DNA of 64,000 nucleotides, from contig NZ_NPML01000004.1 of NCBI RefSeq assembly GCF_002252565.1, positions 62,001 to 126,000 on the forward strand, read 5' to 3'. Positions 23,691-33,991 of this stretch are shown in pieces (the stretch's first letter is position 1; every line of letters starts with the position of its first letter). Position numbers and translations under genes: made by a program. The notes below the pieces were generated by a model that had not been told where the DNA came from, did not search any database, and worked only from the letters and a program-made list of their open reading frames with translations. Source of the stretch: Petroclostridium xylanilyticum (GTDB lineage Bacteria; Bacillota; Clostridia; SK-Y3).

Positions 23691-23719
23691 TTGAGATTCA
23701 GTCATATGAATGATATAAT
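23691..23719 (+). promoter_or_regulatory. Promoter of the XRE-helicase-Mod-Res operon
   Basis: TTGAGA (23691-23696), exactly 17 bases, TATAAT (23714-23719). The spacer contains the palindrome TCATATGA (23702-23709), flanked by TTCA/TGAA-like arms, a candidate operator for the XRE protein directly downstream. Confidence 0.65.
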
Positions 23720-23759
23720 ACTAGATAAATTTGACAGAAATCATGCGAGGTGGCAATTT

Positions 23760-23969
23760 ATGGCCGTCAGTTACAAAAAACTTTGGAAGCTGTTGATTGA
23801 TAAAGATATGAAGAAAAAGGATTTGCGTGCAGCAGCCGGAATCAGCCAAACGTCCATAGCTAAATTAGGTAAAAATGAAAATGTAACAACGGATGTGCTT
23901 GTGAAGATTTGCAAAGCTTTAAAATGTGATATTTCAGATATTATGGAAATTACAAATGACGAAGATTAG
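23760..23969 (+). CDS. XRE-family regulator (controller-like) of the defence operon
   Basis: 69-aa Cro/CI-type HTH: LWKLLIDKDMKKKDLRAAAG, then ISQTSIAKLGKNENVTTDVL and the HTH_26-like end ICKALKCDISDIMEI. ATG 23760 follows GAGGTGG. The only clear promoter sits 40 bases upstream with a palindrome in its spacer, and the big helicase-Mod-Res operon begins 57 bases downstream. It therefore likely autoregulates and times the operon, like a C protein of restriction systems (inference). A longer frame upstream is not plausible as a start. Confidence 0.8.
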   Translation: MAVSYKKLWKLLIDKDMKKKDLRAAAGISQTSIAKLGKNENVTTDVLVKICKALKCDISDIMEITNDED

Positions 23970-30897: not shown

Positions 30898-33800
30898 AAT
30901 ACAGCAATATCAAACCGACGCCGTCAACAGCGTCGTAAACATATTTGCAGGGCAGCCCTTTTCAGACCGTGTCAGTTATGTGCGAGATTTGGGCATTAAC
31001 AAGAAACATCAGTATACCCAAATATCCTTGTTTAACGAGCCTGGCTCTCCGGATGATGATGTAGCCATCGGCTTTGAAAACGCCCGGCTTACGCTTTCCC
31101 CCGGGCAGCTTCTGCAAAACATCCGCAACATGCAGGCCCGCAACAACATAAAGCAGTCCGAGACTTTGGTCAGCCACCTGGGGGCCTGCAGCCTAGACGT
31201 GGAAATGGAAACCGGCACAGGCAAAACCTATGTCTACATAAAGACCATTTTTGAACTGAATAAGCGTTACGGCTGGAGCAAGTTTATTGTGGTGGTTCCT
31301 TCTATTGCTATCCGTGAGGGAGTATATAAGACTTTTCAAATTACCCAGGATCACTTCATGGAGCATTACGGCAAGAAAGCCCGCTTTTTTGTCTACAACA
31401 GCCAAAATTTGACCGAACTTGACAACTTCAGTGCCAGCAGCGGGATAAACGTCATGATTATCAATATCCAGGCCTTTAATACATCATTGAAAGAGGATGC
31501 CAGGAGCAAGGAAGCCCGCCGCATTTATGAAAAACTGGATGAATTCGGCAGCCGCAGGCCTATTGACGTCATAAAGGCCAATCGCCCCATCCTCATTCTG
31601 GATGAGCCGCAGAAAATGGGCGGAGACAAGACCCAGAAAGCACTGGCTAATTTTAATCCCCTGTTCTGCCTGAACTACTCGGCCACCCATGTCCAGCACC
31701 ATAACCTGGTCTATGTCCTGGATGCGGTGGATGCTTACAATAAACGGCTGGTCAAGAAAATCGAGGTCAAAGGATTTGAAGTCAAGAATCTCAGAGGGAC
31801 CGACAGGTATTTGTTCCTTGAGAATATCATTATCTCGCCCAAAAAGCCGCCGATGGCCAAAATCAAGCTGGAGATTGAACACAAAAAATCTGTCAATATC
31901 AAGCGCGAAGCGCGCATCCTCGGTGTGGGCGACGACCTTTATGTTGAATCCAACGAAATGGAACAGTATAAGGGGTACGTTATCAGCGATATTGACCCCA
32001 TACGCGGTACTGTAACCTTTACCAACGGTGTGGTATTGTCCCGGGGAGAGGTTATCGGTGATGTTTCCGAAAAGGACATGCGCCGGATCCAAATCCGGGA
32101 GACCATTATTTCGCATTTTGAAAAGGAAAAACACCTGTTTGAACTGGGCATCAAGACCCTTTCCCTGTTCTTTATAGACGAAGTGGCCAAGTACCGTAAG
32201 TATAACGAGGCTGGGGAAGAAGTCAACTCCGAATACGGAGAAATGTTCGAGCAGGAGTATATCAGCGTGCTGAACGATTACATCACTCTTGAAGACACGC
32301 CTTACGTCCGTTACCTGAAAAGCATTGATCCCGCCAAAACCCACGCGGGGTATTTCAGCATTGACAAGCACGGCCGCAAGGTGGACAGTCCTACCAAACG
32401 GGGAAGTGATGAAAGCGACGACATTTCCGCCTATGACCTGATTCTTAAAGATAAAGAACGCCTCTTAAGCTTTGATGAACCGGTGCGCTTTATCTTTTCC
32501 CACTCGGCCCTGCGGGAAGGCTGGGACAACCCCAATGTTTTTCAGATCTGCACATTGAAGCACGGCGGCGCAAGCCCCACCCAAAAGCGCCAGGAAGTGG
32601 GCCGCGGCCTGCGCCTGTGTGTAAACCAAAGAGGAGAACGGATGGACGTGGAAAAGTGCGCCGATTCCGTCCACTCCATCAACGTGCTGACGGTTATCGC
32701 CAGCGAAGGCTATAAAAATTTTGTCGCCGATTTGCAGACCGGCATCAAAGAGGCCTTGTATGAACGGCCCACAAAAGCAACGGTGGAATATTTTACAGGC
32801 AAGACCGTTATGGTCGGAGAGAAAACGCATGTACTTAATATGCAAGAGGCCAGGGACATCTACCGCTATCTCATTAAGAACGATTATATTGACAACAACG
32901 ACGGCATTACGGAAGCATACCGGACAGACCTGGAAAACAACTGTTTGGCTCCGCTGCCTGAACCCCTCGCGCCCTTTGGTGAAGGTGTGCATGCGTTGAT
33001 CCAGAGTGTGTTTGACGAGAGCGTCTTAAGCAGGATGATAGAAAACGGCAACAAGACCAAAATTCCGGAAAACGCCCTTAACGAGAATTTCTATAAAAAG
33101 GAATTTCAGACCCTCTGGAATTATATTAACCGTCAGTATGCCTACACAGTCGAGTTTGACAGCCGGGAACTCATAGAAAAAGCCATTAAACATATCAATG
33201 AAAACATGTATGTTTCCCAGCTTCAATACACGGTTACCGTCGGCAGGCAGGCAGACGAGCTGGACGGGAACGCCATTGCCCTCGGAAACAGCTTTGTCCG
33301 GGAAAATGCCAGGACGGAAACCCTGAAGCACGCTGCAACAAGCCAGATAAAATACGACTTGATAGGTAAAATTGCCGAAGGCACCACTCTCACCCGACGC
33401 ACGGTCGCGGCAATACTGGCAGGCCTTGAAAAGCCGGTATTTGCATGCTTTAAGCAGAATCCTGAAGAGTTCATTGCCAAAGCAATACGCTTAATAAAAG
33501 AACAAAAAGCCACCATGATTGTAGAGCATATTTCTTATGACCAGATTGAAAAGCAGTATGACAGCAGCATTTTCACCGCTGAAAAAGGAACGGGCGATTT
33601 TGCAAAAGCATTCCGGGCAAAGAAAAACATCCAGGATTATGTATTTACAGACGGAACCGCTGAAAAGAGCGTCGAACGCCGCTTTGCGGAAGATATGGAC
33701 AAAGCCGATGAAGTCTGTGTCTATGCCAAGCTGCCGAAAGGCTTTGCTATTCCTACTCCGGTGGGCAACTACTCGCCGGACTGGGCGATTGCCTTTTATG

Positions 33801-33991
33801 AAGGTACGGTAAAACACATTTACTTCATAGCTGAGACCAAAGGGACAATGGAAAGCTTAAATTTGCGTCCTATCGAGCAGGCCAAAATAAAATGCGCCAG
33901 GAAACTTTTCAATCAGCTGTCCACAAGCAAGGTCAAGTATCATGATGTAGACAGTTATCAGAGCCTGCTAAATATTATGGGAAAATTATAA
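30881..33991 (+). CDS. Type III restriction subunit (Res): helicase-nuclease
   Basis: 1036-aa protein. SF2 helicase: Walker A METGTGKTYV (about 112), DExx box LILDEPQKMGG (about 242), SATHV (motif III), a C-terminal LREGWDNPNVFQICTLKHGG and QEVGRGLRL (motif VI). The C-terminal endonuclease domain shows PDWAIAF (about 965) and FIAETKG (about 985), matching the D-ExK pattern of type III restriction enzymes. It cuts DNA with unmodified inversely repeated sites after ATP-driven movement. ATG 30881 has GGGAG upstream. All key motifs look intact. Confidence 0.9.
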   Translation: MKFQFKIQQYQTDAVNSVVNIFAGQPFSDRVSYVRDLGINKKHQYTQISLFNEPGSPDDDVAIGFENARLTLSPGQLLQNIRNMQARNNIKQSETLVSHLGACSLDVEMETGTGKTYVYIKTIFELNKRYGWSKFIVVVPSIAIREGVYKTFQITQDHFMEHYGKKARFFVYNSQNLTELDNFSASSGINVMIINIQAFNTSLKEDARSKEARRIYEKLDEFGSRRPIDVIKANRPILILDEPQKMGGDKTQKALANFNPLFCLNYSATHVQHHNLVYVLDAVDAYNKRLVKKIEVKGFEVKNLRGTDRYLFLENIIISPKKPPMAKIKLEIEHKKSVNIKREARILGVGDDLYVESNEMEQYKGYVISDIDPIRGTVTFTNGVVLSRGEVIGDVSEKDMRRIQIRETIISHFEKEKHLFELGIKTLSLFFIDEVAKYRKYNEAGEEVNSEYGEMFEQEYISVLNDYITLEDTPYVRYLKSIDPAKTHAGYFSIDKHGRKVDSPTKRGSDESDDISAYDLILKDKERLLSFDEPVRFIFSHSALREGWDNPNVFQICTLKHGGASPTQKRQEVGRGLRLCVNQRGERMDVEKCADSVHSINVLTVIASEGYKNFVADLQTGIKEALYERPTKATVEYFTGKTVMVGEKTHVLNMQEARDIYRYLIKNDYIDNNDGITEAYRTDLENNCLAPLPEPLAPFGEGVHALIQSVFDESVLSRMIENGNKTKIPENALNENFYKKEFQTLWNYINRQYAYTVEFDSRELIEKAIKHINENMYVSQLQYTVTVGRQADELDGNAIALGNSFVRENARTETLKHAATSQIKYDLIGKIAEGTTLTRRTVAAILAGLEKPVFACFKQNPEEFIAKAIRLIKEQKATMIVEHISYDQIEKQYDSSIFTAEKGTGDFAKAFRAKKNIQDYVFTDGTAEKSVERRFAEDMDKADEVCVYAKLPKGFAIPTPVGNYSPDWAIAFYEGTVKHIYFIAETKGTMESLNLRPIEQAKIKCARKLFNQLSTSKVKYHDVDSYQSLLNIMGKL

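Follow-up and report, generated by a model that had tools for sequence, protein, structure and literature searches.

A type III restriction-modification operon of Petroclostridium xylanilyticum with an SNF2-type helicase and a DUF4391 protein in its conserved core

An operon encoding an SNF2-type helicase, a DUF4391 protein, the methyltransferase Mod, a RhuM protein and the restriction subunit Res was analyzed in a stretch of 64,000 nucleotides from Petroclostridium xylanilyticum (assembly GCF_002252565.1, contig NZ_NPML01000004.1, positions 62,001 to 126,000), referred to as the window; it occupies positions 23691-33991 on the + strand. Helicase, DUF4391, Mod and Res form a core: of 89 loci anchored on the helicase, 71 have all four genes in this order and on one strand, a recurrence far beyond chance. 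RhuM is one of many exchangeable second-line genes that are found in slots beside mod. An earlier note, made from the sequence alone, had proposed an extended type III defence system of all five genes; its extension by helicase and DUF4391 is borne out by their recurrence with Mod-Res across phyla, and a place of RhuM in the system is not supported. The locus is a variant of type III restriction-modification (R-M) that is new by the profile libraries and by the open-licence PubMed Central (PMC) literature searched, from which excerpts are cited here by their PMC numbers. We tentatively prefer, at somewhat less than even confidence, to read the core as a four-component type III R-M machine, in which helicase and DUF4391 would act as an accessory motor pair.

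Conservation of the four-gene core

A pattern scan with the helicase profile showed that at least 563 stretches encode relatives of the helicase, of which the best 80 loci were kept; with 8 plasmid loci and the window these constitute the 89 loci, counted with one helicase per locus. Counted otherwise there are 90 helicases and 72 complete loci; L118 holds two helicases. In this locus (L118:1-9744), the second helicase homologue and two large open reading frames (ORFs) are located upstream of the four-gene core. DUF4391 is present after the helicase and on its strand in 88 of the 89 loci, and Mod was never found missing among those with more than 2 kb of downstream sequence. Of the 18 incomplete loci, 17 end at most 2 kb from the end of the stored sequence, and the remaining one, L077, has 4.3 kb left and lacks Res. 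According to the Res tree, the loci span Bacillota, Bacteroidota, Pseudomonadota, Actinomycetota, Verrucomicrobiota, Spirochaetota and further phyla.

Within 398 genomes of the same phylum, DUF4391 was found at 37 places in 34 genomes. Res follows downstream on the same strand within 20 kb at 31 of these places and, on inspection, at one more (L135), resulting in 32 of 37; at the other five the contig ends first, in three cases after part of Mod and in two at DUF4391 itself, and all five have the helicase upstream. The Res of genome G134 is identical to that of Syntrophomonas wolfei, which makes Bacillota the probable phylum of these genomes. In a count anchored on Res, which comprised 59 rows (E up to about 1e-85, with one adjacent piece included; weaker rows were dropped and at most two candidates were scored per genome), DUF4391 lies upstream in 30, and some of the other 29 rows are pieces or are located at contig ends. 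Mod-Res pairs devoid of helicase and DUF4391 also occur. On plasmids, 37 records match DUF4391 and 12 of the 14 opened show all four genes, among them the Acinetobacter NEB149 plasmid, in which mod is interrupted by an insertion sequence; the locus of a Sphingobium plasmid is fragmented by insertion sequences and has no annotated helicase, and one further opened plasmid carries no annotation.

The earlier note had named scattered, independent occurrence of the genes elsewhere as the finding that would speak against one system. Such scatter was found for RhuM and for the XRE-type regulator gene at the start of the operon, and not for helicase, DUF4391, Mod and Res together. Its impression that the operon is under selection is supported, as purifying selection, for the four core genes: compared with L136, the nearest relative of the window by Res (84% identity), the nonsynonymous divergence (dN) is 0.08-0.26 in all four genes and the synonymous divergence (dS) is saturated; as dS is saturated or nearly so in most pairs, these values are to be read as dN far below dS and not as ratios. 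In a closer relative, L149 (G417, contig 12), the homologue of the window's helicase is broken into pieces in different frames.

Mod and Res

Judged by sequence, Mod and Res have the features expected of type III genes, i.e., a putative adenine methyltransferase with an internal target-recognition region and, in the same operon, a putative superfamily 2 (SF2) motor with a C-terminal nuclease domain. Mod matches the solved Mod structure 6k0w (2e-63), EcoP15I (4zcf; 3.2e-61) and the Pfam family N6_N4_Mtase (5.6e-33). Res matches the Res subunit of EcoP15I (1.3e-75) and the Pfam families ResIII and RE_endonuc, and it contains the motifs GTGKT, DEPQ, GRGLR, PDWAI and ETKG. Between the window and L136 the recognition region of Mod (about residues 200-480) shows 17-57% identity (17-32% over its core) vs. 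72-92% outside of it. This region was thus replaced with no matching change in the helicase, which is 87% identical, or in DUF4391, which is still 78% identical; the simplest idea, that DUF4391 is a specificity subunit tied to Mod, was therefore rejected.

Helicase and DUF4391

The helicase matches SNF2-rel and Helicase_C in Pfam. Its N-terminus (residues 1-240), modelled from 47 rows at a mean predicted local distance difference test score (pLDDT) of 74.2, has a phospholipase-D (PLD) fold in the predicted structure. The best fold matches are two restriction enzymes, SauUSI (Foldseek E 4e-5, Z 14.2) and NgoAVII (Z 12.1), and among the next matches is FAM83B, a pseudo-enzyme. The catalytic pattern H-x-K-x4-D was found in one of the 47 rows (L061) and no alignment column contains more than 30% His, so that the PLD nuclease site is lost in the helicase family. 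The statement of the earlier note that all motifs are intact thus fails at this domain, in which the catalytic histidine is gone.

DUF4391 matches PF14335 over its full length (161.7 bits vs. a cut-off of 29.9; positions 1-232 of 232). In the AlphaFold2 model (76 rows, mean pLDDT 94.5), a domain of mixed alpha/beta structure is followed by a helical hairpin at the C-terminus. A Foldseek search against the PDB returned nothing below E 0.23, and a second structure comparison aligned mostly the helical hairpin, with a best Z of 7.9 that is common for hairpins; this lack of a structural relative is no proof that the fold is new. The idea that DUF4391 is a nuclease was not supported, as P5 is the only invariant residue and K16, E182 and Q184 are nearly so (alignment A3). 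Mean identities over 70 loci are 61% (helicase), 30% (DUF4391), 46% (Mod) and 53% (Res).

Linkage of the helicase-DUF4391 and Mod-Res pairs

In the four-component machine that we favor, Mod would recognize and methylate the host site and Res would cut unmethylated DNA. The helicase and DUF4391 would form a complex that travels on duplex DNA by means of its SNF2 motor and to which the inactive PLD domain and the hairpin of DUF4391 may contribute DNA- or protein-binding parts. The motor pair may help Mod-Res to find its target or to trigger cleavage on DNA that is hard for plain type III enzymes, which could be single or head-to-tail sites and protein-covered or replicating phage DNA. EcoP15I consumes some 30 ATP on entering a long-lived sliding state, and its cleavage is confined to inverted site pairs (PMC4490356), and phage T7, which has head-to-tail sites only, escapes it (PMC12707154). 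An added SNF2 motor would be a natural candidate to alter the search, to clear bound proteins or to trigger cleavage; if the motor pair indeed changes the DNA search, this bears on the known limit of type III enzymes, the need for two inverted sites (PMC12707154). Putative helicase-driven sensing is also possible.

It was found that the evolutionary distances of the 70 loci are rank-correlated within the pairs (0.64 for helicase-DUF4391, 0.68 for Mod-Res) and across them (0.34-0.48), and none of 499 permutations reached any of these values. In the Res tree the 70 rows of the DUF4391 type extend over most of the tree and enclose the plain Res rows from L125, L128 and L129; a further six plain rows fall together on a long branch of unsure placement. 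The nuclease domain of Res, searched for with a profile built from the long Res rows of the same loci, is present in 71 of 72 DUF4391 loci; the exception, L117, has a Res ORF of 437 amino acids that ends 98 bases before the contig end. In the nested L125, L128 and L129 this domain was found neither in Res nor in about 1 kb beyond it. The pattern suggests, and does not establish, that the motor pair is linked to cutting.

Mod together with a Res of about 760-810 amino acids that has no detectable nuclease domain was observed in L125, L127, L128 and L129, with no helicase-DUF4391 in the fetched stretch.

In favor of the four-component reading are the recurrence of the core order, the Res downstream of DUF4391 in the same-phylum genomes, the distance correlations, the distribution of the nuclease domain, the replaced recognition region of Mod beside a little-changed DUF4391 and helicase, and the resemblance of the N-terminal domain to two restriction enzymes. 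Several observations weigh against it. The nuclease link is drawn from two independent nested losses, one in L125 and one shared by L128 and L129. The nuclease domain also occurs in plain Res proteins that lie on a long branch of their own (L119, L120, L122, L126, L134). In L166 (G248; L166:4486-13821) and L167 (G298; L167:3994-9613) helicase and DUF4391 have shrunk to short remnants, next to which Mod is retained along with a Res that is full-length, its match reaching position 987 of 989; these loci either are in recent decay or indicate that Mod-Res manages without the pair, and they count against a strict need for it. The rule that helicase-DUF4391 is kept wherever Res has its nuclease, which held in the 71 of 72 loci, is broken by both, and because of this break the odds of the four-component machine, and of its extended form given below, were lowered and those of its two closest competitors, the one that follows and a control module discussed with the cargo genes, were raised.

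Helicase-DUF4391 could instead be a separate two-gene defence, comparable to the helicases of DISARM, BREX-related and ARMADA systems, that is encoded in one operon with an ordinary type III enzyme and perhaps relies on the same methyl mark. The lower correlation across the pairs than within each also fits two co-travelling systems, Mod-Res pairs without helicase-DUF4391 exist (L126, L128, L129), the loss of the pair beside a full Res in L166 and L167 points the same way, and an SNF2-type helicase with a methyltransferase is part of other defences (PMC12458937, PMC12839542). However, a pair that works on its own does not account for the presence of Mod at every one of the helicase loci with sufficient downstream sequence, nor for the fact that the five DUF4391 places without Res all run off contigs, and we regard a separate defence as possible, on the unlikely side.

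The four-component reading can also be carried further. The loci would then represent a type III class that is widespread and has no name yet, and an SNF2 motor with a dead nuclease domain, together with DUF4391, would power a movement of Mod-Res that EcoP15I lacks, such that single or head-to-tail sites suffice. The operon would act as a carrier, and its slots beside mod would take up complete second-line defences, exchangeable with one another, which are co-expressed or released when the first line fails. Taken as a whole, this extended proposal is unlikely.

RhuM and the cargo slots

RhuM of the window is a clear family member (PF13310, 388.1 bits vs. a cut-off of 33.7). It is found in five of 71 complete loci (the window, L053, L087, L099 and L103), always between mod and res, with an additional short RhuM piece before mod in L087. 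RhuM occurs in 65 of the 398 same-phylum genomes, mostly outside this slot, which holds four intact copies and one fragment; that it is a part of the system, as had been supposed, is not supported. A second RhuM gene of the window's own genome lies outside the operon (contig 27, 16758-17492, + strand). An extended type III locus of another kind is present in L122 (L122:946-13566, + strand), encoding a DrmD-like helicase, a 1279-amino acid protein without family match, Mod, RhuM and Res; RhuM is again located between Mod and Res, the relationship of the helicase to DrmD is close (7.8e-200) and there is no DUF4391.

Inserts were counted in the 71 complete loci from mechanically called ORFs, of which small ones may be spurious: they are located between helicase and DUF4391 in 9 loci, between DUF4391 and mod in 31 loci and between mod and res in 26 loci, and 31 loci have no insert of at least 90 amino acids. 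Of 79 cargo proteins, 30 were scanned against Pfam, picked by hand, mostly one per cluster and then singles. A family above the cut-off was assigned to 14 of them, including Schlafen-AlbA, Fic, YhcG/DUF1016, Abi_C, zeta toxin, the GmrSD N-terminus, Shedu and PrrC-like AAA_13. The remaining 16 of 30 have no such family, which makes the slots a route to new defence genes. At E 1e-10, the 79 cargo proteins matched 192 PADLOC models and 80 control ORFs from the flanks, drawn from 101 candidates, matched 37; these figures count models and not proteins, and as the many RhuM models inflate the cargo figure no statistic is attached. Whole two-gene systems are nested between DUF4391 and mod in L136 (5652-9607, - strand), with the Gabija pair GajA-GajB and a KilA-N gene and no RhuM match, and in L138 (4696-8216, + strand), with a SIR2-HerA pair. 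Since L136 is nearest by Res and yet has different cargo, the cargo turns over faster than the core.

The content of the slots bears on the role of helicase-DUF4391 as a control module, which would restrain Res on host DNA, or would sense the failure of Mod-Res and release cargo effectors such as RhuM, as PrrC is released when EcoprrI is inhibited. Toxin- or defence-like genes in the slots beside mod are consistent with this, and a precedent is known in PrrC, which is carried within a type IC locus (PMC12707154). However, the 31 loci without a sizeable insert keep helicase-DUF4391, so that cargo release is not its sole role, and we consider a control module quite improbable.

Operon layout, promoter and XRE gene

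The list of five genes and their abutting or overlapping layout were as the earlier note had placed them, confirmed by ORFs and family matches (Table 1). Helicase and DUF4391 overlap by 7 bases, DUF4391 and mod join at an ATGA, mod and rhuM are separated by 1 base, and rhuM and res overlap by 17 bases. The helicase frame is open from ATG 24002, and GTG 24026 is the likelier start because homologues align there; the res frame is already open from TTG 30863, with ATG 30881 as the likely start.

Table 1. Features of the operon in the window (positions are those of the window).
Feature	Position	Strand	Evidence
Promoter, sigma-70-type, TTGAGA-17-TATAAT	23691..23719	+	Consensus scan, 11/12 bases
XRE/Cro-type helix-turn-helix (HTH) regulator, small, 69 amino acids, exchangeable, not core	23760..23969	+	HTH_26 1.6e-18
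SNF2-type helicase, N-terminal degenerate phospholipase-D fold	24026..27259	+	PADLOC C3a139 'HKD+Snf2' 1.4e-123
DUF4391 protein, alpha/beta domain and helical hairpin	27253..27879	+	PF14335 3.4e-47
Mod, type III adenine methyltransferase, swappable target-recognition region (about residues 200-480)	27876..29870	+	PADLOC MTase_III 2.1e-228
RhuM, cargo gene in mod-res slot	29872..30897	+	PF13310 2e-116; PADLOC PDC-S05 1e-145
Res, type III restriction subunit, SF2 motor and C-terminal nuclease domain	30881..33991	+	PADLOC REase_III 1.8e-296

The clear shared promoter of the earlier note holds as a near-consensus site, and sites of this kind as a class are no commoner than in shuffled sequences (3 found vs. 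a mean of 2.6). What had been described as a palindrome corresponds to TCATATGA and to TTCA/TGAA arms within the promoter spacer, seen by eye and not compared with chance. In the best reading of the HTH gene, HTH_26 covers its main part. A homologue precedes the helicase in five of 86 loci including the window, as counted with one query at E 1e-3 and with other HTH families outside the count; L019 and, weakly, L103 also have an HTH match by profile, and WYL or other HTH genes take its place at some loci. The XRE gene is thus exchangeable and outside the conserved core, and a role as general controller is not supported. That XRE, RhuM and the four core genes make up a single system, with no part dispensable, was suggested by the strong promoter-like site and the overlapping genes. 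Against this stand the rarity of RhuM and of the XRE homologue and the arrangement of L136, in which no RhuM matches and the Gabija pair sits elsewhere in the operon; we hold this for very improbable.

Upstream, a second defence-like pair was observed (9093-11005, + strand), consisting of an ATPase that matches AbiLi (7.3e-79) and a partner that matches AbiLii (4.4e-11). To the left of the operon, relaxase-like and VirB4-like genes (11926-22433), and to its right a tyrosine integrase next to tRNA-Leu (35917-37630), suggest an integrative conjugative element, the gene names being assigned by eye. For an attachment repeat at the tRNA-Leu, no exact repeat of at least 14 bases and no near match was found in bases 1-23000.

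Comparison with known systems

PADLOC profiles match Mod, Res, RhuM (PDC-S05) and the helicase (C3a139). As no PADLOC model matches DUF4391, defence catalogues would probably class the locus with ordinary type III systems and overlook half of the core. The four-gene unit has no model or name in the libraries searched, and no description was found in the excerpts of the open-licence PMC literature, a search that excludes subscription papers; DUF4391 appears there in one table line, and a Cronobacter element that combines type III genes with an SNF2 helicase is listed in PMC12757443, where the excerpt says nothing more about it.

With type III enzymes (EcoP15I, Mod2Res1) the operon shares Mod and Res as sequence relatives, the methyltransferase, motor and nuclease parts and a variable recognition region, and it differs by the upstream SNF2 helicase and DUF4391 and by the cargo slots around mod. 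Type III enzymes are further marked by ATP-dependent cleavage that requires two unmethylated sites in inverse orientation and by methylation of a single strand. DISARM class 1 has an SNF2-like helicase (DrmD) and an adenine methyltransferase as well, and the window helicase matches DrmD models (best 9.5e-34); C3a139, however, fits it far better. DISARM is defined by DrmA, DrmB and DrmC besides DrmD and the methyltransferase. DrmA is a weak match to the helicase core only (1.2e-18), and neither DrmB nor DrmC is among the PADLOC matches listed for the operon genes (best 25 of 42 for the helicase), with the flanks not scanned for them.

BREX-related (BR) type 2 systems share an SNF2 helicase with an N-terminal HKD/PLD domain and a methyltransferase (PMC12839542). 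In the operon, the PLD site is lost and a type III Res is present instead; neither the DUF499 ATPase nor DUF3780 of BR type 2 has a Pfam match among the operon genes, the flanks not being scanned. The N-terminal domain fold, predicted here, is shared with SauUSI and NgoAVII, and SauUSI also joins a PLD domain to an ATPase motor (PMC12707154). The operon differs by the lost catalytic His, by separate partner genes and by the absence of an SRA domain match among its genes. Loci of the EcoprrI-PrrC type likewise carry toxin- or defence-like genes, RhuM included, within R-M loci (PMC12707154, PMC3710099), and a PrrC-like AAA_13 protein is among the cargo described here; in contrast to them, the cargo is housed in a type III locus that has a motor pair, and a slot may contain a whole two-gene system.

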